This document shows positions 25,368 to 57,738 of a stretch of 64,000 nt of DNA, piece after piece (positions within the stretch are counted from its first letter, which is position 1; every line of letters begins with the position of its first letter). Source of the DNA: Paraflavitalea sp. CAU 1676 (GTDB lineage: Bacteria; Bacteroidota; Bacteroidia; Chitinophagales; Chitinophagaceae); NCBI RefSeq assembly GCF_029223285.1, contig NZ_JARHUJ010000007.1:124001-188000 (forward strand). The letters are read 5' to 3'. A program made the translations under genes and the position numbers. A model generated the notes under the pieces. It was not told the origin of the DNA. It searched no databases and saw only the letters and a program-made list of their open reading frames with translations.

Positions 25368-25406
25368 AATCGGCTCTTTTATGGTGGATAATCGACGACC
25401 TATGCA

Positions 25407-25982: not shown

Positions 25983-26009
25983 ATTGAATGCTGTTTAGTA
26001 GTAGGACGT

Positions 26010-26576
26010 TTATTTAATAGTTTCTTTTACCTCGCCGCAGGTCATCATTTTTTCGCCGAAGTAAGGATTTTTTATTTCTTTGTTAGGGCTGATCCAGGAT
26101 GCTCCCTTATCATTCAAAGCCATCGGGCAATAATCCACATACAGTTCACCGGAATTAAGACCTGATTTTTTTACAAGGGTGATAAAATCATTGCTCAAAG
26201 TAGCATAAGCAGTTCTTTGCACTTCAATATCGGTAGCTGCGGTAATTTTTGCAGCATTGGAGGCAACGGCTTCTGCACCTGGAACCTCTTTTGCTCCTGC
26301 TTCGATCGCATTGCTGGCAACTTTGGCTTCTGCCATATCACCATTTGTCAGAGCAGTTGTCAGGTGTACATAATGCTGATAAACGGCATTGAGTTTGTCA
26401 TCTTTTAGCTTTACAGATGCTGAGGAAGTTTTGCCTTCTTCCATTTTCATCTGATCATGGTCTGTGTGGTTTGCGCTATCTTTTTTATCGGTATCTCCAA
26501 CGGTATTTCCATCACCGCAAGCGGCAAAAAGGATTACAGACAATACAGGAATAGCTGATTTCAGTAACTGTTTCAT
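26010..26576 (-). CDS. DUF3347-domain lipoprotein (copper-binding-like)
   Basis: A 188-residue lipoprotein (lipobox LFAAC) with a His/Asp/Met segment (HTDHDQMKMEEG) and a helical DUF3347 domain ending in VDYCPMALNDKGASWIS and KMMTCGEV. The CPM and MTCG motifs, with Met and Cys close together, fit soft-metal binding. DUF3347 domains also occur at the C-terminus of some CusB-like adaptors, so this may be a free-standing version that hands copper to the pump. It is 33 bases after the CusB-like adaptor gene. Confidence 0.85.
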   Translation of the reverse strand: MKQLLKSAIPVLSVILFAACGDGNTVGDTDKKDSANHTDHDQMKMEEGKTSSASVKLKDDKLNAVYQHYVHLTTALTNGDMAEAKVASNAIEAGAKEVPGAEAVASNAAKITAATDIEVQRTAYATLSNDFITLVKKSGLNSGELYVDYCPMALNDKGASWISPNKEIKNPYFGEKMMTCGEVKETIK

Positions 26577-26609
26577 GTTTTTAATTTTTAGGTAAATATT
26601 CGGGTAACG

Positions 26610-27830: not shown

Positions 27831-27833
27831 ATA

Positions 27834-32314: not shown

Positions 32315-32316
32315 AA

Positions 32317-33609: not shown

Positions 33610-33667
33610 AACTGATTTTAATAAGCTGGTTTATTCTATCCTTCTTCGATCAGATTGCGTGTTTCTT

Positions 33668-34042
33668 CTACCGGTGGTGGCCTGAATGATCAGTTTGTTT
33701 ATCAGTTTTGCCCCTGTCATACAAGCAGCATCCGGGTAATTTGTTATATATGGAATCAGCCGCTTTTTCTTTTTCGGTGTCATGCCCAACGGCTGCAATT
33801 TTTTTCTGGATGGCAGCATTGGAGGTTTTGGCAGGATCATAAACAACTGTCATTATTTTTGTCTCAACGTTCCACTCTGCCTTTGATATCCCCTCACCAG
33901 TAGCAGACTTTTCAATCCTTTTTTTACACATCCCACAATTACCATATACTTTAAAGGTTTCTGTTTTGGAATCCTGCGCCAAAGCTGTTTGATGGGTAAA
34001 TGCAGCGACAACAGCTAATATGAGAAATGCTAACTTTTTCAT
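33668..34042 (-). CDS. Secreted HMA-domain metal-binding protein
   Basis: A 124-residue protein with a signal peptide (to QTALAQ) and one heavy-metal-associated fold with GNCGMCKKRIE (CxxC) near residues 36-39, preceded by FKVYG. The C-terminus adds GCCLYD and HSGHH. HMA domains carry Cu(I) on the two Cys. Being periplasmic, it could pass copper to the pump encoded just downstream. The YncE-like gene is 25 bases upstream. Confidence 0.88.
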   Translation of the reverse strand: MKKLAFLILAVVAAFTHQTALAQDSKTETFKVYGNCGMCKKRIEKSATGEGISKAEWNVETKIMTVVYDPAKTSNAAIQKKIAAVGHDTEKEKAADSIYNKLPGCCLYDRGKTDKQTDHSGHHR

Positions 34043-34067
34043 TGTTCAAGTATTAAGTGTTTAAGAA

Positions 34068-35153
34068 TTATTGTTTGATTACAATTCCATTGGGCTTTTT
34101 GCCTACGGGAATATCTTTGATCTTTGAGTGTTCATTGACATTGATCACAGAAACAGAAGCGGCCATTTGATTAGTAACGTAGGCCGTATTGCCATCAGCG
34201 GTAAATCCCACTGCATGTGCCCCTGCAGCCGTATTGAAGCTACCGGCATGGTTCCACTGATTGCCAACCTGGCCCCACGACCAGTAATGGACCTTGCCAT
34301 TGTCGGGGTCTGTTACCCACAGCTCTTTTTTGGCACTGTTATGAGCAGCACTGCCAGGCATAAATCCTAAGTCAATGGTCTGGACAACGGCATTAGTAGA
34401 CACGTCTATAACACTGATGGTTTTTCCTTCCTCATTGTCTACATACATTTTGCCATCAAAACCAACCCATGCGCCAACCGGTTCCGCACCCACCGCAACC
34501 GTGGCTATAATTGATTTAATTGCAGGATCAATGACGGAAACTGTGTTATCGCCTCCATTGGCTACGTAGGCTTTTGATCCATCAGCAGAAAAAGTTACCT
34601 CGGCAGGTTCCATGCCTACGGCTATATTATTTTTCAAAGCGTAGGTCTGAGCATCATATACGAGCACTTTGCCGGTCATTTCCATTTGCGATACCCATAT
34701 TTCCCGGCCATTGGGAGAATACATAGCGTTGTGGTTAGATACCGGCAAGTCTACCGTTTTCAATATATTGCCTTTAACAGCGTCCATTACCAGGACCTTG
34801 CCTTTCATATCATTCATGCCGCCGGAATGGCCTGCGCTCAGGTCCATGCCCGGTACTCCGATAGCGAGGCGGTGCATATCAAAAATGCCGTATAAAGACA
34901 GGTGATGGGGCCACATGACCATTTCATTGCCTGTTCCCATTAATTCCAGGGTTTCAGTGACGGAGTTTTTATCGAGGTCAATAACTGAAATAGTACTGCT
35001 TTCGCCATTGACGACATAGGCCGCCGGGTAATCAATTTGTTTATCTTCCATTGACATACCGGGTATTTTTTGTTTTCTGCAGGAAAGTATGGATGCAGCA
35101 AGCAGCATTGCTGAACAGGCCGCTGCCAATGCAGGGCGTCTGGCCATGAACAT
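34068..35153 (-). CDS. YncE-like beta-propeller lipoprotein
   Basis: A 361-residue lipoprotein (lipobox SILSC; the third-residue Met is an alternative start). It contains at least six repeats of the YVTN/40-residue propeller type, for example AAYVVNGESSTISVIDLDKN and AYVANGGDNTVSVIDPAIKS. Such propellers bind partners or redox factors, and I cannot see catalytic residues. Met and His occur near the start (GMSMEDKQ). It lies between the HYC_CC_PP-like gene and the HMA gene in the copper operon. Its role is unknown. Confidence 0.85.
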   Translation of the reverse strand: MFMARRPALAAACSAMLLAASILSCRKQKIPGMSMEDKQIDYPAAYVVNGESSTISVIDLDKNSVTETLELMGTGNEMVMWPHHLSLYGIFDMHRLAIGVPGMDLSAGHSGGMNDMKGKVLVMDAVKGNILKTVDLPVSNHNAMYSPNGREIWVSQMEMTGKVLVYDAQTYALKNNIAVGMEPAEVTFSADGSKAYVANGGDNTVSVIDPAIKSIIATVAVGAEPVGAWVGFDGKMYVDNEEGKTISVIDVSTNAVVQTIDLGFMPGSAAHNSAKKELWVTDPDNGKVHYWSWGQVGNQWNHAGSFNTAAGAHAVGFTADGNTAYVTNQMAASVSVINVNEHSKIKDIPVGKKPNGIVIKQ

Positions 35154-35265
35154 AAATGAACATTTAGATTAAAAAATAAGGCTACGTCTGAGCGGTAATG
35201 ATGGCGGGCGATATAGGCTTAGGCTATGAAGTAAAAGAAGAAACAGATACGCCCGTAGCAGGGGA

Positions 35266-35670
35266 TCAGATGCGGAAAGTACAAAGGAAAATATATGGTT
35301 GAACCTTTCCAGTTCGGGGCGGAGCATTGTTTACCGGAAACTCCTGTGTTAATGAACTTATCTGCACCTGCGGCAGTTCAATAAAATTGACGGGTGTTAC
35401 GAGGGAGGTAAATGCCAGGAGCTGAAAAGCTGATTCGGTTGTTTTCTGGTCTTTGTCCAGCTTAATTAGCTTATGTTCATCTTTGCAGCACTTTTTCTTG
35501 CAGGAGCTCTTGCTCTCTTTAGTGCTGCATTTGCTGCACTTTTTGGCTTTCTTTTCATGCCATAGTCCCTGTTCAACCAGTTTACCCATGCAATAATGCA
35601 TGTGAACAGTTGCCCCGGTTGAAGAGCCTATGTAAAGAATAGCTAATATGCAGACAATGAACTTTTTCAT
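35266..35670 (-). CDS. HYC_CC_PP-family secreted protein
   Basis: A 134-residue protein with a signal peptide (about 20 residues), then VHMHYCMGKLVEQG, the Lys/Cys-rich KKCSKCSTKESKSSCKKKCC, and NAPPR towards the C-terminus. HYC, CC and PP are the markers that give this Bacteroidota family its name. The His/Met/Cys set suits copper binding. It is the first gene of the long copper operon, 112 bases upstream of the YncE-like gene, with its own AATTATATAA element and TACTTTTG box in front. Confidence 0.85.
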   Translation of the reverse strand: MKKFIVCILAILYIGSSTGATVHMHYCMGKLVEQGLWHEKKAKKCSKCSTKESKSSCKKKCCKDEHKLIKLDKDQKTTESAFQLLAFTSLVTPVNFIELPQVQISSLTQEFPVNNAPPRTGKVQPYIFLCTFRI

Positions 35671-35677
35671 TCCATAT

Positions 35678-35717
35678 CAAAAGTAGAGGTTATTTTGAGA
35701 AATGGTGTTATATAATT
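35678..35717 (-). promoter_or_regulatory. Copper-operon promoter with AATTATATAA element (site A)
   Basis: On the minus strand AATTATATAA (35717 to 35708) is followed after 22 bases by TACTTTTG (35685 to 35678), a TAnnTTTG -7 box. The ATG is only seven bases further on. The same decamer is seen at three other promoters in the window. A second half-site, TAAAATATAA, lies about 20 bases upstream and is weaker. Confidence 0.6.
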
Positions 35718-35921
35718 TTCCCCTGATTTATATTTTAATGCATTCTATCCCGCTATTTAGTTAAAAATCAATGCTCGTGGGCTGGCCTTCCTTCTTATTC
35801 ACCGGACTTTGTAGTTCCGGATGATTGATCCTTCCTCCCTCTTTGGACGTAAATTGGACAAATACCCTCTAAAAGTTAGAGCAGAGGGTGAGAGTGAGAG
35901 AGCTGGCCGGGGCGTAAATAA

Positions 35922-35944
35922 AAACGGGCGGTAACCGCCCGTTT
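35922..35944 (-). terminator. Stem-loop terminator after the CopZ-like gene
   Basis: AAACGGGCGGT (35922-35932) and ACCGCCCGTTT (35934-35944) form an 11-base inverted repeat just past the stop at 35947. On the minus strand it is followed by a T-rich run (TTTTTATTT). Confidence 0.85.
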
Positions 35945-35946
35945 AT

Positions 35947-36162
35947 TTATTTGACCAATTCTACAGCCTGATAGCCTGCCTTTTCTACCGCCTTTTTAAT
36001 GTCAGTACTATTGGATTTATCTGTGGATACTGTCAGAACTTTATCCGGATTTTGGACATCTACTTCCCAATTGTCTTCACCAGCCACTTCATTCAAAAAA
36101 GGGGTTACGGTGGCTATACAGCCTGAACATTTGATATTTGTTTTAAATTGTACTGTTTCCAT
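35947..36162 (-). CDS. CopZ-like cytosolic HMA metallochaperone
   Basis: A 71-residue single HMA domain with no signal peptide: TNIKCSGCIATVTPFLNEV (CxxC at about residues 12-15), then WEVDVQNPDKVLTVS and the KKAVEKAGYQAVEL end helix. Such proteins carry Cu(I) to CopA-type ATPases. The gene has its own promoter element (site B) and its own terminator, so it can be made separately from copA, which is about 1.1 kb upstream on the same strand. Confidence 0.9.
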   Translation of the reverse strand: METVQFKTNIKCSGCIATVTPFLNEVAGEDNWEVDVQNPDKVLTVSTDKSNSTDIKKAVEKAGYQAVELVK

Positions 36163-36203
36163 AGTTCACTTTTTATAAATTAATATTGTATTGTTTACTG
36201 TAG

Positions 36204-36263
36204 TAAAATTACGTCCGCTTCCTGCTTTGGTGTTACACAATACCAGGAGTGTTTTATATAATT
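36204..36263 (-). promoter_or_regulatory. AraC-type direct-repeat operator and promoter for the CopZ-like gene (site B)
   Basis: On the minus strand AATTATATAA (36263 to 36254) and TATTGTGTAA (36242 to 36233) are 21 bases apart start to start. A TAATTTTA box (36211 to 36204) follows 21 bases after the second half. Repeats spaced by two helical turns are typical of AraC-family sites. Confidence 0.65.
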
Positions 36264-36265
36264 TT

Positions 36266-37318
36266 CTACACATCGATTTCTATGGTCACCTCATCATTAA
36301 GCGGGTAGCTTTGGCAAAGCAGGATCATTCCGGCATCCAGCTCCTCTTTTCTTAAAACATAGTTGGAAACCATAGTGACTGCTCCTGCAGTAAGCCGTGC
36401 GGTACATTTTCCGCAGGTCCCACTGTTGCAGGAATAAGGCAGAGTGATACGATCCTCCAATGCTGATGTTAAAATACTAGTGCCAGGCCGTACTTCTAAA
36501 AGGTTTGATTGCTCATAAAAATGTAGCATCACTTCGTGCATGTCTTGTGGCAATTCAACAGGCTTGGGGTTTTCATCCGGTCTGAATCTTTCCACGAATA
36601 TATTTTCCGAGGGTACAGCAAGTTCTGCCAAAGACTCTTCCTGTATTTTGATAAGCGAGGATGGGCCGCAAATAAAATAATGGGCTTCCGGAAGATGACC
36701 AGGTACATGCTTTTTTATCAGCTTTTTGACAATAATTTTATTTAACCGGCTCAAAACAAGTTCACCAGTGGGCAGTTTCATATCCTGTGCCTGCTGGGAC
36801 AGTGCATGTATAATAGTTATTCTGTTTTTAAAAGTATCTATCCACTTTTCAATCATTCCATTAAAAATAATATACTCCGTTGACCTATTGGCATAAATGA
36901 TGGTAAGTTGGGTGGTTGGCAGGTGATGAAGAACCGATTTTGCAATAGAAAAGCAGGGAGTAAAACCACTTCCCGCTGCCAGTAACACTATGTGTTGGCT
37001 TTTCAAGGGGCGAATAAAGGCACCATAGGGGCCATCTACCTGCCAATGTTGGACGTTTTCCGCATTGTCAACGATATAACTACTCATCAATCCGCCGGGC
37101 ACTTTCTTTATGGTGACAGCCGGCTGTTCGTCAACACCTGGAGCTGAGCTCAAAGAATACGACCTGGTAACAGGAGCGCCATTTACAAGAATGGTAATGT
37201 TGATAAATTGTCCTGCTTTATAGTCAAATTTTTCCGCACCGGTATTAAATTCGATGGTTATTGTATCCGGTGTTTCCTGCACTATCCTTGCTGTTCTCCA
37301 GATATAGAGTTTGTTCAT
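36266..37318 (-). CDS. Ferredoxin-type oxidoreductase (FAD/NAD(P)H plus [2Fe-2S], PaaE/Hmp-like)
   Basis: A 350-residue soluble electron-transfer protein. The FAD-binding barrel shows RSYSLSS near residue 55, the nucleotide-binding part has AAGSGFTPCFSI, and the C-terminal plant-type ferredoxin domain has YSCNSGTCGKC with a final Cys in LLCQSYP, giving the four [2Fe-2S] ligands. Proteins of this build pass electrons from NAD(P)H to partner oxygenases or other acceptors. It is 30 bases downstream of copA and shares its promoter. A link to copper, such as reducing Cu(II) to Cu(I) for the ATPase, is only inference. Confidence 0.88.
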   Translation of the reverse strand: MNKLYIWRTARIVQETPDTITIEFNTGAEKFDYKAGQFINITILVNGAPVTRSYSLSSAPGVDEQPAVTIKKVPGGLMSSYIVDNAENVQHWQVDGPYGAFIRPLKSQHIVLLAAGSGFTPCFSIAKSVLHHLPTTQLTIIYANRSTEYIIFNGMIEKWIDTFKNRITIIHALSQQAQDMKLPTGELVLSRLNKIIVKKLIKKHVPGHLPEAHYFICGPSSLIKIQEESLAELAVPSENIFVERFRPDENPKPVELPQDMHEVMLHFYEQSNLLEVRPGTSILTSALEDRITLPYSCNSGTCGKCTARLTAGAVTMVSNYVLRKEELDAGMILLCQSYPLNDEVTIEIDV

Positions 37319-37348
37319 GGATGCTTCTAAGATTTTCTGTAGGGTAAA

Positions 37349-39622
37349 TCAAATTCGGGCAGCTTTCAGTCGGAGGCTGTTGCTGACCACACTTACTGAG
37401 CTGAGAGCCATTGCCGCGCCTGCTATCATAGGATCCAATAAAAATCCATTGAATGGAAACAGAACGCCTGCTGCTATGGGAATGCCTATGATATTGTAGA
37501 TGAAAGCCCAAAAAAGATTTTGCTTAATGGTACGTACTGTCTTGTGGGACAGATTTAATGCTTTGGGAATGCTGTTCAGATCGGAAGTGATCAGGGTCAT
37601 TTTGGCAACATCCATAGCAATATCTGAACCTTTACCCATAGCAACGCTCACATCAGCCTGAGCCAATGCCTGGGAATCGTTAATGCCATCTCCTACCATA
37701 GCCACTACTTTTCCCTGGCTCTGCAGTTGTTTGGCAAAGTCAGCTTTGAAAGAAGGCATTACTTCAGCATGATAGGATTTGATGCCGACCTTTCTTGCCA
37801 CGGCAGCAGCGGTGTGCGCATTGTCACCGGTAAGCATGTGTACCTCAATCCCCCTTCGTTGCAGGGCCTCAATGGCGGCTTTTGATGATTCCTTTATTTT
37901 GTCGGCAATAGCGATAGTTGCCAATACTTTTCCCTCACCTGCAAAGTAGATAACCGTTCTCGCATCCTCTTGCAGGGCGGCGGCTTTAGCTTCTACTTGT
38001 TGATCAATAGGTATATTGAAATCGTTCAAAAGTTTACTGTTACCTACGAGGTAGGTAATTCCTTCTGCTTCGCCTGTGATGCCTTTACCGGTGATGCTTT
38101 CAAAAAACTGAAGTCTGGGCGGATTGAGGGTGCTATTTTGGAGGTAATTAACAACTGCTTCTGCCAAAGGATGTTCCGAGTGATGTTCAAGACCCAATAA
38201 GATAGATTGATGCAAGGCTCTATTCTCACTATGAGCATTCCACACTAAGTCTGTCACTACTGGTCGTCCTTCAGTAATTGTGCCCGTTTTGTCTAAAATA
38301 ATGGCATTCACCTTATGAGCCAGTTCGAGGCTTTCTGCATCTTTAATAAGGATATTGTTTTCTGCACCTTTGCCCACACCGACCATAATGGCGGTGGGCG
38401 TAGCCAGGCCCAATGCACAAGGGCAGGCTATAACCAGCACAGTCACAGAGGTGATCAATGCATGAGTAAAGGCATTGTCTCCGCCCAATATCATCCAGGC
38501 CGCAAAAGTGAGGACTGCGATGCCAATCACCACCGGAACAAAGATGCCGGCAATTTTATCTACCAACTTTTGTACAGGTGCTTTGCTGCCCTGCGCTTCC
38601 TGTACCATTTTGATAATCTGAGCAAGCAAGGTGTCAGCTCCTACTTTATCAGCCTTGAATCGGAAACTGCCCTTCTGGTTGATAGTACCTGCATATACAA
38701 GATCATTTTCTTTTTTGGCCACAGGTACAGGTTCCCCTGTGATCATGCTTTCATCCACATAAGAATCACCATATACAAGAGTCCCATCCACAGGTATTTT
38801 ATCGCCGGGCTTTACCAGTATAACGTCGCCTGTTCTAACTTGAGCAATAGCTGTTTCAGTTGTATTGCCAGTAGCATCTACCAACAGCACTGTCTTGGGT
38901 TGTAAACCAATCAATTTTTTGATGGCAGAGGAGGTATTGGATTTTGCCTTTTCTTCCAGCAGTTTGCCCAGTGAAATGAAGGCAATGACTACAGCCGCTG
39001 CTTCAAAATATACATGCGCATGGAGGCCGCGCTGATGCCAGAATTGGGCATAAACTGTATTGAATGCACTGAACAGCCAGGCTATACCAGTGCTGAGTGC
39101 AACAAGGGTGTCCATATTCGCCTTCCGGTGCTTTGCCTGTTTCCAGGCATTGATGAAGAAGCTACGTCCCAAAACAAATACAACGGGCGTGGCCAGTATC
39201 ATCATGATCCAATTACCATAGGGCATGTTCATAAAGAACATGCCGATGATGACAATGGGCAGGGACAGGATGGAAGCCAATATTGTCCGTTGCCTTATCA
39301 AGCGGTAATGCCTTTTTTGCGCTTCTTCCCGTACCTCTTCTTGGTTCTCTTTTTCTATTACAAGATCATAGCCTATTGAGCGAATCGTACTGCGCAAGGT
39401 GTCCGGCGAAACCATGGCTTGATCGTATTCAACCCAAGCGGTTTGATTGGCAAAGTTTACACCTGCATTCCGCACACCTTCCACTGATTTAAGCATAGAT
39501 TCCACACTGACAGCGCAGGCGGCACAGGTCATTTCCAGCACGGGATAGGATTCCTTAATGATAGCAGCACTACTATTAGCGACCTTTGGCTTTTTATAGT
39601 GAGTGGAGGCGGTCGTTGACAT
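37349..39622 (-). CDS. copA: CopA-type Cu(I) P1B-1 ATPase
   Basis: A 757-residue P-type ATPase with one N-terminal HMA domain (C33 and C36 in MTCAACAVSVE), the membrane motif C400-P401-C402, the phosphorylated aspartate D444 in DKTGT, and MVGDGINDSQAL. These are the marks of the P1B-1 class that exports Cu(I)/Ag(I) from the cytosol. An extra 20 or so residues precede the HMA. The reductase gene follows 30 bases later. The TAGCTTTG -7 box and a pair of AraC-type repeats lie just upstream. Confidence 0.95.
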   Translation of the reverse strand: MSTTASTHYKKPKVANSSAAIIKESYPVLEMTCAACAVSVESMLKSVEGVRNAGVNFANQTAWVEYDQAMVSPDTLRSTIRSIGYDLVIEKENQEEVREEAQKRHYRLIRQRTILASILSLPIVIIGMFFMNMPYGNWIMMILATPVVFVLGRSFFINAWKQAKHRKANMDTLVALSTGIAWLFSAFNTVYAQFWHQRGLHAHVYFEAAAVVIAFISLGKLLEEKAKSNTSSAIKKLIGLQPKTVLLVDATGNTTETAIAQVRTGDVILVKPGDKIPVDGTLVYGDSYVDESMITGEPVPVAKKENDLVYAGTINQKGSFRFKADKVGADTLLAQIIKMVQEAQGSKAPVQKLVDKIAGIFVPVVIGIAVLTFAAWMILGGDNAFTHALITSVTVLVIACPCALGLATPTAIMVGVGKGAENNILIKDAESLELAHKVNAIILDKTGTITEGRPVVTDLVWNAHSENRALHQSILLGLEHHSEHPLAEAVVNYLQNSTLNPPRLQFFESITGKGITGEAEGITYLVGNSKLLNDFNIPIDQQVEAKAAALQEDARTVIYFAGEGKVLATIAIADKIKESSKAAIEALQRRGIEVHMLTGDNAHTAAAVARKVGIKSYHAEVMPSFKADFAKQLQSQGKVVAMVGDGINDSQALAQADVSVAMGKGSDIAMDVAKMTLITSDLNSIPKALNLSHKTVRTIKQNLFWAFIYNIIGIPIAAGVLFPFNGFLLDPMIAGAAMALSSVSVVSNSLRLKAARI

Positions 39623-39632
39623 CGTTTTTTTT

Positions 39633-39693
39633 CAAAGCTACCATTACATGGCTCCATACTTGTTACATAATTGATGAGCTATTTTATATAATT
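39633..39693 (-). promoter_or_regulatory. AraC-type direct-repeat operator and promoter of copA (site C)
   Basis: On the minus strand AATTATATAA (39693 to 39684) and AATTATGTAA (39672 to 39663) are near-identical repeats 21 bases apart. After 22 bases comes TAGCTTTG (39640 to 39633), an exact TAnnTTTG box. The copA ATG is ten bases further on. Confidence 0.75.
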
Positions 39694-39876
39694 TTTAGAA
39701 TGTTTAGTGATCACCTCAAAACACTCCTACATTTTAAGTGTGAAACAGATAACAAAGTAATGATCAATATGATTGAACAAAATAGAAAAATACATGCCCT
39801 CAAAAAGTGTCTACCTTTTTGAGGGCACATCAAGTTGGCTTTATCCTTACTTAAAACTTGCGTCTTATATGTCGTT

Positions 39877-41292
39877 TTACTTAGACTGCTTTATTTTCAC
39901 AGCAGCAATAATAATTCCAAGCCCACCTAATATAGCTGCCCCTAAAAAGGCTGTTTTAAAACCTGCATTGAGTGCCGTTGTTTCCTCCACCCCATTTATT
40001 AATGAATTTTTCGTGACCGAAGTAGCAATAACTGCAATGATGGCCAATCCTAATGCTGATCCTACCTGATAACTCGTATTGACAATACCCGAAGCTAGTC
40101 CGGTTTCTTCCGGCTTGACGCCAGAAACAGAAATCATCGTTCCGGGTATATAAGCCAGAGACATCCCTAATGCGCCAAGTATGGATGCTGGTAAAACACT
40201 GGATAAAAATGTCCCGTTTACAGATCCCATGCTAAATACTAATAACGAAATAGTAAGAAATATAAGACCTGCCATTAAATTCGCCTTAACCCCGTATTTA
40301 ACTACAAGCTTTCCCGTTACACCTACCATCGTAATCATAATCGTAATTGTCATAGGTAATAATGCCAATCCACTGTGAAATGCATTCAGCTTTAATATTT
40401 GTTGCAAATATAGATTTAGGAAAAACCATAATGGAATCCAAGCGGCTGCCAATAATGCGGTAACAATATTACCTGCTGATAAATTGGGCGCTTTTAGAAT
40501 GTGAAAGGGCAATAATGGGTCTGCGGATTTTCGTTGAGTAAAAATGAATATCACAAATAAAATAACGGCAAAAGCCAATAATCCAATAGTTCGAGAAGAA
40601 CCCCAACCAGCGTTTTCCGCAGACACAATGGCATACACCAAAATTATCAGGGCGGCAGTAGCCAATACAGCGCCTATCCAATCAATCTTACCGGTATTTT
40701 TCCTGCCAGCCTTCAAATATGCCTTACAAAGTGACAACACTACCAATCCCATAGGGATGTTAATATAGAATACCCACCTCCAGTTCGTCCATTCTGTGAT
40801 AACGCCTCCGAGAAACACACCGGCTGAGCCCCCGGCCGCTGCCGAAGCACCCCAAAAACCAAAGGCTTTTCCCAGTTCTTTCGGGTCGGTAAAAGTGGTC
40901 ATCAATAAAGTCATTGCAGCTGGTGCAATCAATGCAGATCCTAATCCTTGCAAAGCTCTGCCGGTATTTAAAGATTCAGGTGACCAGGCCGCACCCGCCA
41001 GCAGTGAGGCGGCAGTCAGAATAACAAACCCGCACATAAATATTTTCCTTGCCCCAAAAAGATCCGACAACCTGCCTCCTAACAGCAGTATACCGGCAAA
41101 AAGCACAACATAAGCATTAAATATCCACTGAAGCCCACTCTGGGCATAACCAAGATCATTTTTAATAGCAGGCAAAGCCACCCCGATTATGGACGTATCC
41201 ATTATCACCATGAATTGAGCCGTGCATAAAAGGGCCAATGCTATCCATCTCTTTTCGTAATAAATATTGGAGACTAAGTTTCTTTCTTGCAT
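39877..41292 (-). CDS. MFS exporter, DHA2 (EmrB/QacA) type
   Basis: A 471-residue protein with fourteen predicted helices and DHA2 motifs (FMVIMDTSIIGVALPAI with the D in helix 1; GRLSDLFGARKIFMCG after helix 2; LGSALIAPAAMTLL). It would export organic compounds such as dyes or drugs using the proton gradient. It is on the same strand as the RND genes upstream but has its own upstream region. TTATACTATA (41341-41350) in that region is repeated in front of the RND adaptor gene. Confidence 0.9.
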   Translation of the reverse strand: MQERNLVSNIYYEKRWIALALLCTAQFMVIMDTSIIGVALPAIKNDLGYAQSGLQWIFNAYVVLFAGILLLGGRLSDLFGARKIFMCGFVILTAASLLAGAAWSPESLNTGRALQGLGSALIAPAAMTLLMTTFTDPKELGKAFGFWGASAAAGGSAGVFLGGVITEWTNWRWVFYINIPMGLVVLSLCKAYLKAGRKNTGKIDWIGAVLATAALIILVYAIVSAENAGWGSSRTIGLLAFAVILFVIFIFTQRKSADPLLPFHILKAPNLSAGNIVTALLAAAWIPLWFFLNLYLQQILKLNAFHSGLALLPMTITIMITMVGVTGKLVVKYGVKANLMAGLIFLTISLLVFSMGSVNGTFLSSVLPASILGALGMSLAYIPGTMISVSGVKPEETGLASGIVNTSYQVGSALGLAIIAVIATSVTKNSLINGVEETTALNAGFKTAFLGAAILGGLGIIIAAVKIKQSK

Positions 41293-41392
41293 AATTTATT
41301 TTTTCGAAGGCAAAAGTATTTACATCATTCTCTGTTGTTATTATACTATAACAGAAAGAATGTATAAGATTATGGCATAAACAACATCTACC

Positions 41393-42751
41393 TTAAAACT
41401 TGGTATGTTCGGCAGCAGTATCAAGTTGCAATATGCCCATAGCGTTTTTCAGTTGTAATGATATCAGGCTAACAGAGTATGCTGCTTGTAGGTCGTTTAA
41501 CCGGGCTTTGGTTAAAGCTAGTTCTGCGTCAGTCAGCTCAAGTCGACTGCTAAGACCAAACCGATATCGCTCGTTTATCATATTGTAATTGAGCTGCGCA
41601 GCGTCAACATTTCGCCGCTGTATATGCCACTGGTCGTAAGCGTTCTTCAAATTGGCATTCAATGAAACGAGTTCGGTTTCAATACTGCTCTTCAAGTCTG
41701 CAAAGGCAATTTCGTTTTGCTTAACAGCAATTGTTGATTGAGCGGTTATATGTTTTAATCTATCGCCAGAATAAATTGGGACGCTAAGCTTTAAACCAGC
41801 AAAAGATGTGCGGGGCAGACTATTATTCCAGAACTCCAGATTATCCGATTGGTTTTGCACTTGGTACTGTGCAATAGCTGTCAACATTGGCTTAAACCCT
41901 GCTTTCACATTCTGCAACTGCACTTTGGATTTTTCAATTTGCAGCGATTGAATCTTCACATCCTTTCTATTGTCTATTGCAATGGAAAGGGCTGCACTGG
42001 TTGCACTAATCGTCTGTTCATTCAATGTGAGACTATCTGTGTATTCAAGTATCACATTGTCTTCCATTCCAATCAATTGCTTTAACTGCACGGATAATAC
42101 ACCAATATTATTTTCCAATGCCGAGATAGCAGCTTTGATGTTCTGCACCGATAGGTAATTGCTGAGGGTGTCTGTCTTCAAGCTTTTTCCTTGCAGGAAT
42201 AATGAACGGGAATCTATCAAGGCCCTTTCGTTCCGTCGCAGGCTTTGCTCCATCACCCTCTTTTGTTCTTTGTTCATCAACGCAGTGAGGTACAAGTTGG
42301 CAATATTCAATGCCAGCCTGTCCTCGGTGTTTTCCATTTCCTGCTTACTAATTCGCTCGTTAATGCTTGCTACCCTGACATTGCTTTTGTAAACAGGATT
42401 CAGAACCGGATAGCTGGCGCTAATATTCCCGTCAAACGAATACCGTCCTCCAAACTTAACATCATTTACTTTGGGTGATCCGGTCTCATTACGAAGATAA
42501 ATGACTGGCCTTTCTGCATAAATGTAATAGGAGCCATTCGCTGTTATTGCAGGCAATGAGAAGCTTTTTGCTTCCTTCACAGCTTCAGCAGATTTCTGAC
42601 TTTCCAACAATTGTATTTGCAACTGGCGATTGCCTTTGACCGCTAATTGTAATGCCTCCCGCAAATTCAACGCCCTCGTTTGTGCATTGCTATTGCTTAC
42701 GCACCAGAATAATACCGTCAGTAGCCATAGTTTCGAATAATATTTGTTCAT
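41393..42751 (-). CDS. TolC-family outer-membrane channel of the second RND pump
   Basis: A 452-residue protein with a signal peptide (to CVSNSNAQ) and two TolC repeats (LNLREALQLAVKGNRQLQIQLLESQ; RYRFGLSSRLELTDAELALTKARLNDLQAAY). It forms the exit duct for the pump whose gene lies 17 bases upstream. It is the last gene of an adaptor-pump-channel operon, the standard order. Confidence 0.9.
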   Translation of the reverse strand: MNKYYSKLWLLTVLFWCVSNSNAQTRALNLREALQLAVKGNRQLQIQLLESQKSAEAVKEAKSFSLPAITANGSYYIYAERPVIYLRNETGSPKVNDVKFGGRYSFDGNISASYPVLNPVYKSNVRVASINERISKQEMENTEDRLALNIANLYLTALMNKEQKRVMEQSLRRNERALIDSRSLFLQGKSLKTDTLSNYLSVQNIKAAISALENNIGVLSVQLKQLIGMEDNVILEYTDSLTLNEQTISATSAALSIAIDNRKDVKIQSLQIEKSKVQLQNVKAGFKPMLTAIAQYQVQNQSDNLEFWNNSLPRTSFAGLKLSVPIYSGDRLKHITAQSTIAVKQNEIAFADLKSSIETELVSLNANLKNAYDQWHIQRRNVDAAQLNYNMINERYRFGLSSRLELTDAELALTKARLNDLQAAYSVSLISLQLKNAMGILQLDTAAEHTKF

Positions 42752-42768
42752 AACACTTCTATTGGTTG

Positions 42769-45700
42769 TTAGGCAATTTGTTTTTGTGCATGTTCCATTG
42801 CCATTGCTTCATCTTCCACTTTTTGTTTCCTTTTACCGGAAGACAAATATGAGTATACAGCTGGTATAATAAACAGAGTTAGAATACCTGCAAATACTAA
42901 TCCCCCGGCAATTACAATCCCAAGTGATTGACGGCTGTTATTGGTCAATGCAATCGGCAGGGCGCCGAATATCATAGCCAATGAAGTCATAAGGATAGGA
43001 CGGAACCGTTGCTCTGCGGCATGAATGGCTGCTTCAAGCCTAGACATGCCCTTGTCCTTCAGGTGATTGGCAAATTCAACGATAAGAATCCCATTTTTGG
43101 TGATCAACCCAACGAGCGTAATAATGCCAACCTGGCTGAATACGTTCAAACTCTGGCCAAACCAATGCAGGCTTAGTAAAGCACCGGTAACTGCCATTGG
43201 CACAGTTAGCATAATGATCAGCGGGTCCCGCAGGCTTTCAAATTGTGCAGCCAGGATCATATAAATGAGCAGTAATGCCAGTATCAAAGTGAAATTGATA
43301 TTCCCCTGACTTTCCTGGTAGTCTCTCGACTGCCCTGCCAGCGTTGCCTTGAAGTTATCACCCAATACTTCTTTTTTGATCCTTTCCATTTCCTGAATGC
43401 CTTCTGCCAAACTCACTCCGGGAGCTATTCCTGCAGATACCGTTGCAGAGGTGTACTGATCATAGCGATAGATGGCGGCCGGGCTAATACCCTCGTCTAT
43501 TGCCACAAGATTATCTAAAGAGATCATTTGTCCATTGGCCGACCGGATATTAATGGAACGCAGATCACTGATATCATTTCTATTGATTCTTTCCACCTGC
43601 CCGATCACTTCGTATTGACGGTCGTTTTGCAGGTAATATCCATAGCGCTGCCCGGAGAAGGAAAGCTGTAAGGCTCTTGCTACTTCCTGGATGGATACGC
43701 CAAGCAATGCCGCTTTCTTGCGATCTATATTGATCCTTATTTCAGGTTTATTGATCTTCAAGTCTGCATCCACAAACATCAAATTCTTACTTTGCCTTGC
43801 TGCTTGCAGGAATTTTGGCAGGATGGATGAGATACTATCCAGACTAGGCGCCTGCAATACATACTGAACCGGCATACCGCCTCCATAACGGGTGCCAATT
43901 GTTGGAGGCAAATAAGGGAACAATAACAGGTTCCTGAATTTTCCGGAAGCCATACCATATTGGTTATACAATTGCTGGATATTGGTCTTCCTTTCTTGGG
44001 GATCCTTCAAATAAATGGACTGTACAGCAAAACTGGTAGGCGCCGGGGCCGGGATAAAGGAAATAGCCACCATGGAATAGGTTTGATATAAGCCTTCGGT
44101 TGAATCATTCACATACTTACCCACTTCCATCATATTTTGCTTCATCTTATCAAATGAAACCCCTTCCGGAGCAATGGCAATCAGGCTCATATTGCTCCGG
44201 TCTTCTACCGGCGCCAGTTCTGAAGGTATTTTCCTTCCAATAAAATAGATAAGGCTGGCTGTTGCAATCAGGAATACCCAGGCCAGCCAGCGATGCATCA
44301 TAAATCCTTTCAACCAGGAAGCATAACCATTATTGAGTTTAACAAAGAAAGGTTCTGTTATTCTGTATAACCAATTGGGTTTGCTTTTCTTTTTTAGCAG
44401 GTAGGCGCTCAGCATGGGCGACAATGTCAATGCTACAAATGCCGATACCAATACAGATCCTGATACCACAATTGCAAACTCCTTAAATAGCTGTCCGCTA
44501 ATGCCCCCCATGAATATGATGGGCATAAATACGGCGGCGAGTGTGATGGTTGTAGAAATGACGGCGAAGTAAATTTCTTTACTACCGGCAAAAGCAGCCT
44601 GTATCGGCGGCATCCCCTCCTCTACCTTCTTATAAATATTTTCCAGCACTACAATGGCATCATCTACCACCAGCCCAATAGCCAATACTAAGCCCAGCAA
44701 GGTTAATACATTAATGGAGAAGCCAGCTACATACATGATGAAAAAAGCAGATAGAATAGATACAGGAATGGCAATAACCGGGATGATGGTAGACCTCCAG
44801 TCGCGCAAAAACAGAAAGATGATGATAACCACCAAACCAAATGCAATAAACAGGGTTTCTTCCACTTCCTTAATTGATTCCCTTACCGGCTTAGTATAAT
44901 CAAATCCAACAATAAGCCTGTAGTCAGATGGGATTTCTTTTTTAAGGCTTTCTAATCTTCTATAAAACTCATCTACAACCTGAATCGCATTGGCGCCACG
45001 TTGAATTTGTATGGCTACTCCCACGCCGATTGCATTTTTACCACCTGTCTCATTGATGATGGCATTCCGTTCATTCATCTCTCCCAATTCGGCATAACCA
45101 ATATTCTTTAATCGAATGGTTGCATCCCCGTATTGTTTGATGATCATTTCGTTGAACTCCTCTGGCGTGGTAAGCCGTCCAAGGGTACGAACACTCAGTT
45201 CGCTGTTGTTTCCTTCGATGCGCCCGGAAGGCAAATCGATATTTTCTTTGGCTAGTGCTATACGAATATCTTCTGGCGTCAACTGGTAGGCCGCTAGTTT
45301 AACCGGATCGAAGCGCAAGCGCATCGCATATTTATGTTCTCCTACAATTGCAACGCGTTGAATGCCGGGGATGGATTGCATTCTGTCTTTAATGATCGTA
45401 GACGCTAGGTGACTTACTTCCTTAATATCTTTGGTATCGCTTTCCACTTCAAGAAAGGCCACGAGATTATCCGGTGAAGTCGCTTTCTCTACTATAGGAG
45501 GATCAACATCAGCCGGTATCTGGTTCTTAGATTTGGCAACTTTATCACGCACGTCATTCAATGCGTCGTTTAGATCAATGTCGCGATTAAATTCAATTGA
45601 AATAATGCTTACCTGCTCTCTGGATTCAGAAGAAATTGTTCTTACACCATTGGCTTCCGCAATGGATTCTTCCATCGGCTTGGTAATTTTGGATGCTATT

Positions 45701-45873
45701 ACATCAGGACTTGCACCTGGATAAAAAGTAACAACGGAAATTACGGGAGGCTCCGTCATGGGAAATTCCCTCACACCAAGATACTTCCAGCCCACTAAAC
45801 CGGCAATTACAATCAACGCCGAAAATACTGCCGCCAGCACCGGCTTTTTTATGCTTAATGATGGTAAACTCAT
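42769..45873 (-). CDS. RND multidrug efflux pump permease (HAE1 type)
   Basis: A 1034-residue twelve-helix RND protein with the classic D-D proton relay (GLVLAIGLVVDDAIVVLEN) and the second bundle (GLITKNGILIVEFANHL; RFRPILMTSLAMIFGALPIAL). This is the multidrug HAE1 group, not the metal group. It is 21 bases after the adaptor gene. Small aromatic or antibiotic substrates are expected. Confidence 0.93.
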   Translation of the reverse strand: MSLPSLSIKKPVLAAVFSALIVIAGLVGWKYLGVREFPMTEPPVISVVTFYPGASPDVIASKITKPMEESIAEANGVRTISSESREQVSIISIEFNRDIDLNDALNDVRDKVAKSKNQIPADVDPPIVEKATSPDNLVAFLEVESDTKDIKEVSHLASTIIKDRMQSIPGIQRVAIVGEHKYAMRLRFDPVKLAAYQLTPEDIRIALAKENIDLPSGRIEGNNSELSVRTLGRLTTPEEFNEMIIKQYGDATIRLKNIGYAELGEMNERNAIINETGGKNAIGVGVAIQIQRGANAIQVVDEFYRRLESLKKEIPSDYRLIVGFDYTKPVRESIKEVEETLFIAFGLVVIIIFLFLRDWRSTIIPVIAIPVSILSAFFIMYVAGFSINVLTLLGLVLAIGLVVDDAIVVLENIYKKVEEGMPPIQAAFAGSKEIYFAVISTTITLAAVFMPIIFMGGISGQLFKEFAIVVSGSVLVSAFVALTLSPMLSAYLLKKKSKPNWLYRITEPFFVKLNNGYASWLKGFMMHRWLAWVFLIATASLIYFIGRKIPSELAPVEDRSNMSLIAIAPEGVSFDKMKQNMMEVGKYVNDSTEGLYQTYSMVAISFIPAPAPTSFAVQSIYLKDPQERKTNIQQLYNQYGMASGKFRNLLLFPYLPPTIGTRYGGGMPVQYVLQAPSLDSISSILPKFLQAARQSKNLMFVDADLKINKPEIRINIDRKKAALLGVSIQEVARALQLSFSGQRYGYYLQNDRQYEVIGQVERINRNDISDLRSINIRSANGQMISLDNLVAIDEGISPAAIYRYDQYTSATVSAGIAPGVSLAEGIQEMERIKKEVLGDNFKATLAGQSRDYQESQGNINFTLILALLLIYMILAAQFESLRDPLIIMLTVPMAVTGALLSLHWFGQSLNVFSQVGIITLVGLITKNGILIVEFANHLKDKGMSRLEAAIHAAEQRFRPILMTSLAMIFGALPIALTNNSRQSLGIVIAGGLVFAGILTLFIIPAVYSYLSSGKRKQKVEDEAMAMEHAQKQIA

Positions 45874-45894
45874 AATAAATTATTTTTGAATGAC

Positions 45895-46962
45895 TTAATG
45901 AGAGGTTACAACAGTTACGGGAATACCATCTGTTGCACGAAGCATGTTTGATACCATCACAGTATCTCCGCTGTTCAATCCTGAACTAATCAAGGCATCC
46001 TTTTCATTACGGCTTCTTATGGTTACCGGTGTGATGCTTGCGGTATTGTTTTTCACAACAAATACACTGTAGCCATTTCCTCCGGGTATTAGTGCTTCTG
46101 TGGGTACCGTAATGGCCTTTGCATTTTCCCGGGAAGTATTGAAATATACTTTAGCAGACATGCCTGCTTTTAATTTTCTACCGGCATTCGTTGTTATCGC
46201 CTGCACCGTAATATTCCTTGATTGCATATCGATCGATGCTTCTGTTGACACAACCTTTGCTGTTATTTTCTCCTTATTGAGCTCTGTACTGAATTGAATA
46301 CTGCTGCCAGCATTGACCAGGGGTAAATATTTTTCAGAAACTGTAAACTGGATTTTTACCACATCTTGCTCCTGGAAGCTAACGAGCGACATGCCCGGAC
46401 TCACCAACGTACCGACATATACTTTTGTAAATCCGGCAACTCCCGGAAAGGGCGCCCGGATAAGAGTTTTCGATAACTCTAACTGGAGAATGTCCTGTGC
46501 AGCTTCTAAAGATTGCAGTTTGGCCAGTGCAATATCATATTCTTCCTGGCGTACTGTTTCTGTTTTTAATAATTCACTCAAACGATGCTCGTCTATCTTT
46601 GCCAAGTTCAAATCAGCCCGAAGCTGGCGGATTTTTGCCTTGACATCTGCATCATCAAGCTCATACAATACCTGTCCCTGACTGACAAAGCTTCCGTCTT
46701 TAAAATAAACAGCAGTCACCTTTTTTGCCAATTCGCTCATAATTTCCACCGTTCGGTTTGGCACAACTGAGCCTGCTACAGCTTCTGTCTGCTCGATCGC
46801 TGCTTCAGTTATGATCTTTACATCGACGGGAAGAGCTGCAGGAACCGATGCTGTAGTATCTTCTGACTTACTATTTTTATTTTCTTCATTTGATGTGCAG
46901 GATGCTACGGAAATGGCAACAAAAATCGTTACCAGCAATAATCTTACTGTATTTATCTGCAT
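45895..46962 (-). CDS. RND periplasmic adaptor lipoprotein of the second pump
   Basis: I place the start at the Met at 46962, which gives the lipoprotein signal MQINTVRLLLVTIFVAISVASC. A longer frame from 46992 adds ten charged residues ahead of it and is less likely. About 355 residues show the lipoyl halves (FKDGSFVSQGQVLYELDDADV; IRAPFPGVAGFTKVYVG) around a short helical hairpin, then barrel domains. There is no metal-binding segment. It heads the adaptor-pump-TolC operon. Confidence 0.9.
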   Translation of the reverse strand: MQINTVRLLLVTIFVAISVASCTSNEENKNSKSEDTTASVPAALPVDVKIITEAAIEQTEAVAGSVVPNRTVEIMSELAKKVTAVYFKDGSFVSQGQVLYELDDADVKAKIRQLRADLNLAKIDEHRLSELLKTETVRQEEYDIALAKLQSLEAAQDILQLELSKTLIRAPFPGVAGFTKVYVGTLVSPGMSLVSFQEQDVVKIQFTVSEKYLPLVNAGSSIQFSTELNKEKITAKVVSTEASIDMQSRNITVQAITTNAGRKLKAGMSAKVYFNTSRENAKAITVPTEALIPGGNGYSVFVVKNNTASITPVTIRSRNEKDALISSGLNSGDTVMVSNMLRATDGIPVTVVTSH

Positions 46963-46992
46963 AATGCTTTTGTATCGTTTAATTATAATCAA

Positions 46993-47660
46993 AAATAGAA
47001 TGGACAGGAGAGATAACTCTTATACTATAGTTCGTGAGATTTATATTATTTTTAGATCAGTTCTACTATGTCTAATTGGGTTTTTAAAATCTGGATGTAA
47101 TGGCAAATATTGTTCGTTTAGCGTTTCTGAAAAATTAAGCAATGAGGGGGACTTCGTGGTACCAATTAATTAATTACCATTAAGTGCTCTAAAACATCAA
47201 TTTGATCTACCATTCATTACGAAAGTGAAAGATTAACTTGGCACGAAATGATATTGTGCCAAAATATGTTTATCTATTTTCATTCCTCTATTGGTCTTGG
47301 CGCTAAAAGTAATAACGAAAGGCAGCAATAATTATAAACGATAATGTGGCGGGTGTAGTCAGTGTGATTACGGAGAATTGAACTAAAATGAAGTCTGAAC
47401 GGATTCTTATGATCGTTTGCGTGAAAAGTTTGCAAAGAAACCTGCAGTTGCTTAGGCCATTTGAGGCACCTATGGATAAAGATGTTTGGGATATTAAAGG
47501 CCATATCCAGGATAGGGCAGAAACCCTTTATAATAATAACATAGATTTATTAGCCAACTTTGTATTTTCATTGCGAGTTAAGGTAATTATTGACGTTAAT
47601 TCATTTTACACAATGCTACCGTCGAATAGAAGCTTGCTGTTAATCAATAGAAAGTAGATG
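46993..47660. other. 668-bp intergenic stretch with inverted repeats, no supportable gene
   Basis: Short frames exist on both strands but show no recognisable protein. Structures seen are TTATACTATA (47020-47029), which also occurs at 41341, and TTGGCAC (47238-47244) with GTGCCAA (47256-47262), 7-base arms around 11 bases. The region holds the promoter of the RND adaptor operon at its left end. Confidence 0.5.
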
Positions 47661-48257
47661 TTAACTAACTTTTCGGATGCTATGCTTGCTGCCCCTAAAT
47701 TGAGATTTATCCTGTCTGATCTTTTTAAAGTGGGACGGGGTAAGACCTGTTTCATTTTTAAATTGGGCAGATAAATGAGCTACACTGCTGTAGCCTAATT
47801 TATAAGCTATGTCAGTAAGCGAATATGAAGAATAAACCAGCATTTCCTTGGCTTTCTCAATGCGGTAGCCAATAATGTATTTTTCGAGCGTTATGCCTTC
47901 AACAGAGCAAAAAATGCTGCTTATAGATACGTAATCTTTGTGAAAAGTAGCAGCTACTAATCCTGAAAACGAAAAACCATCTGTAAAGTCAAAAGATCCT
48001 GCATATACCTTTTCAGCCAGTGATTTCAACTCCTTTACCAATTTTGTATTTTTGTTTTCGAGTAGGGTAAATCCTAATGGCAATAACTGTTCCCCGATGG
48101 CTTTTATATCTGGTGCGGTCAATGCAGAAAGTGTAGTAACTTCTCCCAGTGTAATTTCATTTATAGGAATTTGTAACCCATCCAATTCATTGCGAATTGT
48201 AAGAATACAGCGATCGCAGACCATTCCTTTAATATAGATTTTATACCCGATTTGCAT
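47661..48257 (-). CDS. AraC-family regulator with N-terminal CxxC (HMA-like) metal-sensing domain
   Basis: A 198-residue protein. The N-terminus reads YKIYIKGMVCDRCILTIRNEL, with C14-x-x-C17 in an HMA-like beta-alpha start. A linker of about 70 residues follows, and then an AraC double helix-turn-helix (IEKAKEMLVYSSYSLTDIAYKLGYSSVAHLSAQFKNETG begins its key part, ending GLTPSHFKK). It lacks a cupin. Metal binding to the CxxC is inferred. An AraC-type direct repeat (site D) precedes its own start and matches the sites before copA and the copZ-like gene, so I propose that it controls the copper regulon and itself. Confidence 0.85.
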   Translation of the reverse strand: MQIGYKIYIKGMVCDRCILTIRNELDGLQIPINEITLGEVTTLSALTAPDIKAIGEQLLPLGFTLLENKNTKLVKELKSLAEKVYAGSFDFTDGFSFSGLVAATFHKDYVSISSIFCSVEGITLEKYIIGYRIEKAKEMLVYSSYSLTDIAYKLGYSSVAHLSAQFKNETGLTPSHFKKIRQDKSQFRGSKHSIRKVS

Positions 48258-48305
48258 AGATCAATCGTATAGCTATGCAAGTTGCTGAATCCCCTGAAGG
48301 AATTT

Positions 48306-48336
48306 TTACAGAATTATCGGAAAGAGTTATATAATT
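48306..48336 (-). promoter_or_regulatory. AraC-type direct-repeat operator before the HMA-AraC gene (site D)
   Basis: On the minus strand AATTATATAA (48336 to 48327) and AATTCTGTAA (48315 to 48306) are 21 bases apart. The distal half overlaps the last codons of the decayed upstream paralogue. No strong -7 box is visible at the expected distance. Confidence 0.6.
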
Positions 48337-48900
48337 ATGGCTTCACCTTGTCTAAAGGTTTGCGTTTGTTTTCTTTCAGTTGTCTAAAGTGAGAAGGTGT
48401 AAGCCCGGTGACCATTTTGAATTGTTGGAAAAGGTGTTGCACACGGTTGTAGTTCAGTTTTTCGGAAATTTCGCTTAGACTTAGATCATCGTACATTAAC
48501 AGCTCTTGGGCTTTTCAATTCGTTGGAGAATGACGTATTTTTCGATGGTAATGCCCTCAATCGCAGAAAAGAGACTGGGAGATACATAGTCAAGTTGCAG
48601 TTTATCTCATGCAACCAAACAGACAACTTCTTTGAAAGATCCACATCATCCGCCGCATGTACCAATTGGATAGTACTGTTTTTGTCTTTTCTATACGGGC
48701 TTCTTTCTTATCGTCCAGCATTTCAAAACCCAGGTTATGCAGTGGATCATTTAGTACCTTTAATCGGTTGCAGACGGAGACAAGGTAAGTTCAATTTCTC
48801 CAAGTTGAATGTTTTTGTAGGAAAGTCCTTGTTTTTCCAACTGCTCCCTGACCACCAGGATGCAACGGTCGCAGACTATATTTTTGTTATAAGGCTGCAT
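48335..48900 (-). pseudogene. Decayed paralogue of the HMA-AraC regulator
   Basis: From the ATG at 48900 the frame reads MQPYNKNIVCDRCILVVREQ and on to LSPSATD before a stop. The reading then continues in other frames: NDPLHNLGFEMLDDKKEARIEK, later SLFSAIEGIT and EKYVILQRIEK, and finally GLTPSHFRQLKENKRKPLDK before the stop at 48335. Each piece lines up with the intact gene at 47661, so several small indels have broken it. The CxxC (VCDRC) is kept. It directly follows the sialidase-like gene. Confidence 0.85.
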
Positions 48901-57728: not shown

Positions 57729-57738
57729 CTCTTGAAAT

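Follow-up and report, generated by a model that had tools for sequence, protein, structure and literature searches.

Candidate operators of an AraC-type regulator with a CopZ-like domain in a copper gene cluster of Paraflavitalea

Introduction

A cluster of copper genes with several separate promoters raises the question of which regulator acts on them, and through which DNA sites. The cluster lies in Paraflavitalea sp. CAU 1676, a member of the Bacteroidota with an 8.84-Mb genome, in a window of 64,000 nt (the whole stretch of DNA that was analysed, C21:124001-188000; positions without a contig name are window positions). Its minus strand carries a copper P-type ATPase gene (copA), a gene for a small CopZ-like protein, a tightly packed set of genes that includes HYC_CC_PP (the HYC set), and the gene of an AraC-type regulator with a CopZ/HMA-like N-terminal domain, HMA-AraC. 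A preliminary description of this DNA had proposed that a decamer repeated in front of these genes marks one copper regulon. The evidence set out here makes it probable that these sites serve as operators for a class II AraC activator that Cu(I) switches on through a CopZ/HMA-like sensor, and that would control copA, the CopZ-like gene, the HYC/Cus/CopB operon and its own gene, and probably an RND and an MFS pump as well.

The half-sites of AraC proteins are spaced as a 21-bp direct repeat, and the promoter of Bacteroidota consists of a -33 element (TTG) and a -7 element (TAnnTTTG). Known bacterial copper sensors are CueR, CsoR, CopY and CusRS; they control copA and CopZ-type genes, as HMA-AraC is proposed to do, but belong to unrelated families of DNA-binding proteins. 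In the main text of a 2024 survey of the copper genes of Bizionia argentinensis, a member of the Bacteroidota with several copper P-type ATPases, MerR and CopY-like candidates are set aside for want of copper ligands, ArsR-type ones are considered possible, and the word AraC does not occur (PMC11213822). A search limited to open-licence PubMed Central found no paper that describes an HMA-AraC protein as a regulator of copper genes. Taken singly, AraC regulators, HMA domains and copper regulons are established; within the literature searched, their combination is new.

A paired half-site in the window

The decamer AATTATATAA occurs four times in the window and always on the minus strand, at 35717-35708, 36263-36254, 39693-39684 and 48336-48327, exactly where the preliminary description had placed it. 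The expected number of matches is 0.42, and none of 100 dinucleotide shuffles of the window reached four. In front of the CopZ-like gene, copA and the HMA-AraC gene, a second half-site begins exactly 21 bases downstream (at 36242, 39672 and 48315, respectively), again as first described; the pair AATTATATAA-N11-WATTNTGTAA, with up to two mismatches allowed, gives only these three matches, all of them exact, against 0.01 expected and no shuffle of the 100 reaching three. The distances from the proximal half to a -7-type box hold as well: 22 bases at copA, 21 at the CopZ-like gene and 22 at the HYC set.

The HYC site had been taken for a lone half. Its strong half is the proximal one and has a weak distal partner, TAAAATATAA, 20 bp upstream; at two paralogous HYC promoters of the same genome (L012:10717 and L013:9300) the distal half lies exactly 21 bp upstream. 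The regulator gene at 47661 does carry its own exact copy of the pair (48336-48304). Its -7 box is degenerate, with AACTTGCA at the expected distance, and reads AACTTTGCA in the related loci L034 and L075.

Scored with a matrix whose training set was 22 sites from outside the window, the three exact pairs reach 32.8 (copA), 32.1 (CopZ) and 29.9 (HMA-AraC), compared with a best score of 20.8 and a mean of 11.9 among 40 dinucleotide shuffles of the window. The same layout recurs at two further places that the preliminary description does not include: (-)46990-47050, before an RND efflux operon, and (-)41311-41371, before an MFS efflux gene. The RND pair at (-)47018-47050 scores 21.6, above the shuffle maximum. 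Measured against a composite model (half, N11, half, N22, TAnnTTTG), the RND site has two mismatches and the MFS site three, and in each TAnnTTTG stands exactly 22 bp behind the second half.

The preliminary description had also suggested that matches of the pair across the genome would sit before copper genes, and this held in part. At up to two mismatches there are six matches, all of them at genes of copper clusters. Three are the window sites; the other three belong to a second CopZ-like gene (C17:167130), to the copA that follows another HMA-AraC (C21:555513) and to a gene that follows a third one (C23:147474). Five more appear at three mismatches, namely the RND site, a third CopZ-like gene (C21:558916) and three inside unrelated open reading frames, which brings the matches before copper or efflux genes to 8 of 11. 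Once the -7 box is included, the composite model at up to three mismatches gives 21 matches in the genome against one in the backward control. Nine belong to copper or efflux clusters (two overlap at the MFS gene), four to a fourth HMA-AraC, four to AraC genes with a cupin domain (cupin-AraC) and four to other places.

The operator in related loci

A family-alignment scan returned at least 568 related stretches, from which 80 loci, ranked by similarity to the window regulator, were kept. In 49 of the 80 a copA start lies within 400 bp downstream of the HMA-AraC gene, and the motif stands between the two genes across many genera. With a tolerance of three wrong positions in 18, the pair AATnnTRYAA-N11-AATnnTGTAACA is found near 36 of the 52 strong copA starts in these loci and near 14 of 719 control upstream regions, which belong to other open reading frames of the same 80 loci. 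Replacing N11 by spacers of 7-10 or 12-15 leaves 0-8 of the 52. A motif-free comparison of the copA upstream regions with themselves has its largest peak at an offset of 21 (7.21/10, against 6.40 in controls) and a smaller one at 33 (6.79 against 6.16). The offset-21 peak and the preference for N11 are those of an AraC-type direct repeat with a two-turn phase, on which binding is predicted.

When up to four mismatches are allowed, 43 of the 52 copA upstream regions have the site, and 42 of these can be read through to the -7 box. In 36 of them TTTG keeps one and the same position, in 4 it is a single base closer, and in 2 it lies elsewhere or is missing, which places the Bacteroidota -7 box TAnnTTTG at or near a fixed distance in 40 of the 42. 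Across site positions 26-35, where a -33 box would stand, none of the 42 has the start of a TTG, and the missing -33 element is therefore read as a dependence on an activator. The DNA between the half-sites and the -7 box is unconserved, unlike the two half-sites 21 bp apart. Several of the remaining nine copA upstream regions have a weaker form of the same layout and the others none.

L103 and L105 have a CopZ-like gene just before copA. Some RND permease genes of the related loci are likewise preceded by a composite-type site, namely those in L033 and L095 (four mismatches each) and in L058 and L102 (two each); at five other RND genes of the same size class it is absent or has 4-6 mismatches.

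The HMA-AraC protein

The window protein has the double helix-turn-helix domain of the AraC/XylS family, with both HTH_18 (7e-17) and HTH_AraC (3.6e-8) above cut-off, and the best Foldseek matches of its model are AraC-type domains. The HMA-AraC proteins tested match AraC-type models only, and for three of this genome NCBIfam has no equivalog above cut-off. The AlphaFold2 model (mean pLDDT 87, pTM 0.64) predicts an N-terminal beta-alpha-beta-beta-alpha-beta domain, the HMA fold, in which C14 and C17 sit where helix 1 begins. A profile built from three proteins of the family finds the HMA domain of Bacillus subtilis CopA (1p6t) at 1.5e-5. The metal-motif form MVCxRC is present in 88 of 91 proteins, two of the other three having a different CxxC and one none; M, V, C, R and C are invariant in all 39 aligned proteins linked to copA. 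By sequence, the regulator is one of a widespread family of AraC proteins whose N-terminal domain is CopZ-like.

HMA-AraC shares with CopZ/HMA domains (PF00403; B. subtilis CopZ, 2qif, and the HMA domain of CopA, 1p6t) the predicted ferredoxin-like fold and the M-x-C-x-x-C at the start of helix 1. It differs from them in being fused to an AraC DNA-binding domain, and its single sequence goes unrecognised by the Pfam HMA model. With Escherichia coli AraC (araI1-araI2) and other class II AraC activators it has in common the DNA-binding domain and the direct-repeat halves 21 bp apart, of which the proximal one lies beside the core promoter. It departs from E. coli AraC in its sensor, which is CopZ/HMA-like rather than a cupin, in its length of less than 200 amino acids, in its half-site AATnnTRYAA, and in the Bacteroidota -7 box.

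Paralogues and distribution

In a tree of 122 rows, two pairs of which are duplicates of proteins of this genome, the window protein falls, with the second partners of tandem HMA-AraC pairs, into one clade (support 100/99). Outside the window, 12 of 13 members of this clade have an operator in front of their own gene; of 75 other HMA-AraC upstream regions none has one (up to 5 of 22 positions mismatched). Upstream of the window gene lies a broken HMA-AraC relict (48344-48900), whose last residues match those of an intact paralogue in L013; an intact copy of the canonical copA type lies at C21:555 kb. The site at 48327 as a mere relic of a lost arrangement of HMA-AraC, site and copA was considered and set aside: L033 and L034 have the tandem pair intact with a site between its members, and the site is kept by 12 of the 13 clade members.

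A second branch has lost the first cysteine. The composite pattern abounds in several genomes of one genus (g108 of f5), where counts such as 19, 17 and 17 stand against 0, 0 and 1 in the backward control; in two such genomes, G283 and G358, many sites fall within about 40-50 kb that include YtxH, ferritin-like, DUF2383, DUF892 and MlaD genes. These islands (G283:C24, L224 and L225; G358:C6, L226 and L227) adjoin an HMA-AraC-like protein with MVSNRC, together with PAS, histidine-kinase, CheB and CheR genes. Relatives of the MVSNRC protein were found in 78 of 149 class genomes; 30 of their loci hold 24 MVSxRC and 5 MVCxRC proteins and one that is not readable. The 25 MVSxRC rows, query included, form one group (support 100/98), at whose base stands the fourth HMA-AraC of the present genome (MVCIRC). 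In the region of that fourth protein (L194:5201-8583), sites lie before a fatty-acid desaturase gene, a Na/H exchanger gene and other genes.

Of 147 genomes from the family to which the window belongs, 97 have the motif (at most one mismatch) and 112 have HMA-AraC (E<=1e-30); among the matches listed, 48 of 150 motif matches lie within 5 kb of a listed HMA-AraC. The open reading frames around 30 of the motif matches were inspected: 13 matches lie at copper or HMA genes and 2 more within 1.5 kb of an HMA-AraC. Across 296 genomes of the phylum, HMA-AraC (E<=1e-35) occurs in 141, the composite pattern (at most one mismatch) in 81 and both in 74. The pattern is thus found in 74 of 141 genomes with HMA-AraC and in 7 of 155 without it (Fisher's p 7.6e-22, inflated by kinship); stratified over the 17 families that have both states, 49 co-occurrences are observed and 42.8 expected (z 3.6). 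On plasmids, the relatives of the regulator that were found are all below 60% identity and are mostly annotated as AraC family.

Organisation of the copper cluster

The features of the cluster, all on the minus strand, are listed in Table 1 in their order along that strand. Transcription units were deduced from gene spacing.

Table 1. Genes and putative operators of the copper cluster, in minus-strand order
Feature	Position	Strand	Evidence and details
Broken HMA-AraC relict (canonical copA-type)	48344..48900	-	Profile matches; 3 TGA/1 TAA and 2 TGA/1 TAG/2 TAA inside
Operator before HMA-AraC gene: AATTATATAA-N11-AATTCTGTAA, -7 box degenerate	48304..48336	-	Score 29.9
HMA-AraC regulator gene, 198 aa; MVCDRC residues 12-17, AraC DNA-binding domain 105-179	47661..48257	-	Pfam HTH_18 7e-17
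RND operator and -7 box: AATAATATAA-N11-TATAGTATAA-N22-TATTTTTG	46990..47050 (C21:171020 = window 47020)	-	Matrix, composite model
RND efflux operon	41393..46992	-	Adaptor 45895-46992, permease 42769-45873, TolC-like 41393-42751
MFS operator and -7 box: AATCTTATAC-N11-TATAGTATAA-N22-TACTTTTG, overlapping third half AATGATGTAA	41311..41371	-	Composite model
DHA2-type MFS efflux gene	39877..41292	-	TIGR00711 above cut-off
copA operator and -7 box: AATTATATAA-N11-AATTATGTAA-N22-TAGCTTTG	39633..39693	-	0 mismatches to composite, score 32.8
copA, copper P-type ATPase, N-terminal HMA domain	37349..39622	-	TIGR01511 616.7 bits (cut-off 397); Pfam HMA 2.2e-12
FAD/2Fe-2S oxidoreductase	36266..37318	-	31 bp behind copA
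CopZ operator: AATTATATAA-N11-TATTGTGTAA, -7-like TAATTTTA at N21	36203..36263	-	Score 32.1
CopZ-like HMA protein, 71 aa	35947..36162	-	Pfam HMA 1.7e-5, above cut-off
HYC-operon operator: distal TAAAATATAA (35737-35728), proximal AATTATATAA (35717-35708), N22, TACTTTTG	35678..35737	-	
Tightly packed HYC set	23295..35670	-	HYC_CC_PP, beta-propeller, HMA protein, split CusA, outer-membrane, adaptor, DUF3347, DUF2911, P-type ATPase

The oxidoreductase is probably on the same transcript as copA. The P-type ATPase that ends the HYC set is of the CPH type as read from its sequence, and the permease of the RND operon scores better with drug-type RND models than with the CusA model. The CusA-type permease of the HYC set (30380-33609) consists of two adjacent open reading frames of 430 and 644 amino acids; the split is probably real, since one of about 430 + 640 amino acids recurs in L013, L041, L045, L050, L059 and L090. 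Elsewhere in the window are a 1456-amino-acid RND permease fused to an outer-membrane efflux domain (8378-12748; ACR_tran and OEP), a gene for a DtxR/MntR-type metal repressor with a FeoA domain (53283-53942), and genes for a relaxase and a TraG/VirD4-type coupling protein (56529-59745), on account of which the copper cluster may sit on a conjugative element.

A model of the switch and its alternatives

In the proposed mechanism, each half-site AATnnTRYAA would be bound by one AraC DNA-binding domain, so that two monomers sit two helical turns (21 bp) apart on the direct repeat. From the end of the proximal half to TAnnTTTG it is 22 bp, which puts this half where the -33 element would lie. Cytosolic Cu(I) would be taken up by the cysteine pair of HMA-AraC, and the loaded protein would contact RNA polymerase, substituting for the missing -33 element and activating transcription. 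The genes switched on would be copA, the CopZ-like gene, the HYC/Cus/CopB operon and the gene of the regulator itself, with the neighbouring RND and MFS pumps as probable further members. The anatomy of the sites, their spacing and conservation and the predicted fold of the domain are read directly from sequence. The binding of HMA-AraC to these sites, Cu(I) as its signal, activation over repression and the membership of the two pumps we infer from the sequence evidence and, for sensing, binding and activation, from knowledge of the family. The linkage to copA, the 21-bp phase and the TTTG distance support the single copper regulon of the preliminary description, which with the RND and MFS operators would be larger than first claimed.

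Several observations weigh against this reading. The 80 loci were chosen by likeness to the window regulator and are no random sample. The backward control of the pair in the genome gives 10 matches at up to three mismatches, without a split by mismatch number, and at that threshold the 11 matches of the pair alone are therefore not above control in number. The MFS site (41339-41371) is the weakest of the set, its score of 17.0 lying below the shuffle maximum. Pfam PF00403 has no match to the single window protein at E<=0.1, and CopZ (2qif) is not among the top Foldseek matches, ranking 42nd behind AraC domains (E 0.026, TM 0.68 by target). Fifteen of the 30 family loci inspected could not be tied to copper or HMA-AraC, and among genomes with HMA-AraC the motif at up to one mismatch occurs in only 3 of 33 in f23 and in 0 of 4 in f2, counts that speak against a universal operator.

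The strongest challenge accepts that HMA-AraC binds the sites, with a signal other than Cu(I), for instance thiol stress, envelope stress or a different soft metal like Ag(I), or with repression as the outcome. The drug-type RND and MFS pumps among the targets would suit it, as would the sister clade with serine for the first cysteine beside stress-gene islands, where the domain would not always be a metal sensor; the islands carry the same sites, and the layout is therefore no proof of copper control. The targets in the window, by contrast, are copA, CopZ, CusA-type and HMA proteins, the cysteine pair is invariant in the aligned copA-linked proteins, and the proximal half-site apparently takes the place of the -33 element, as in class II activators. 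This alternative is unlikely.

The sites might instead belong to another AraC-type regulator, either a cupin-AraC or the fourth HMA-AraC, with the neighbouring HMA-AraC incidental. The layout itself gives this some footing: the four composite matches around the fourth HMA-AraC (C21:49212) encircle it, with desaturase and antiporter genes nearby, four others adjoin cupin-AraC genes (C23:149205, C4:41594, C6:113941 and C12:200817), and a cupin-AraC gene lies within the window at 15936-16760. The weaker sites beside cupin-AraC genes suggest an AraC operator grammar shared within this genome, and the matches at these genes and at the fourth HMA-AraC rule out a motif exclusive to copper genes. It was too strong to say, as the preliminary description did, that the regulator is tied to its targets by sequence alone, given that paralogous HMA-AraC genes (one clade with its cysteine lost) and cupin-AraC genes adjoin sites of the same layout. 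Against another regulator stand the position of the motif between HMA-AraC and copA across many genera and its far higher frequency in genomes with HMA-AraC, confounded by kinship as that comparison is outside the stratified test. Such a regulator is accordingly a good deal less plausible still.

That the decamer is no operator at all, and stands there by chance in AT-rich DNA or as a feature of the promoter itself (UP-like, or a variant of the -33 box), is very improbable: the sites are AT-rich and keep a fixed distance from the -7 box, but the shuffles, the 719 control upstream regions and the spacer controls exclude a chance match, and together with the -7 geometry of the 42 sites and the two conserved half-sites 21 bp apart, set in unconserved DNA, they also reject an element inherent in the promoter.

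Implications

If the proposed Cu(I) activator is correct, an AraC protein that has a CopZ-like sensor and acts through a readable operator would fill the place of the copper sensor in many Bacteroidota, HMA-AraC being present in nearly half of the phylum genomes sampled (141/296). A broader scheme is tentative and perhaps doubtful: HMA-AraC may be a large one-component family of the Bacteroidota with one ancestral layout, AATnnTRTAA-N11-AATnnTRTAA-N22-TAnnTTTG, in which the forms with the cysteine pair would be a main switch of the phylum for cytosolic Cu(I), and the MVSxRC clade, coupled to PAS, histidine-kinase, CheB and CheR proteins, would have become the master regulator of a regulon for general stress, instead of an alternative sigma factor. 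The clade that has lost the cysteine is a testable candidate for stress control in Bacteroidota. The operator would offer a direct route to reading copper regulons, to building copper reporters and to testing how a metallochaperone fold became a gene switch.

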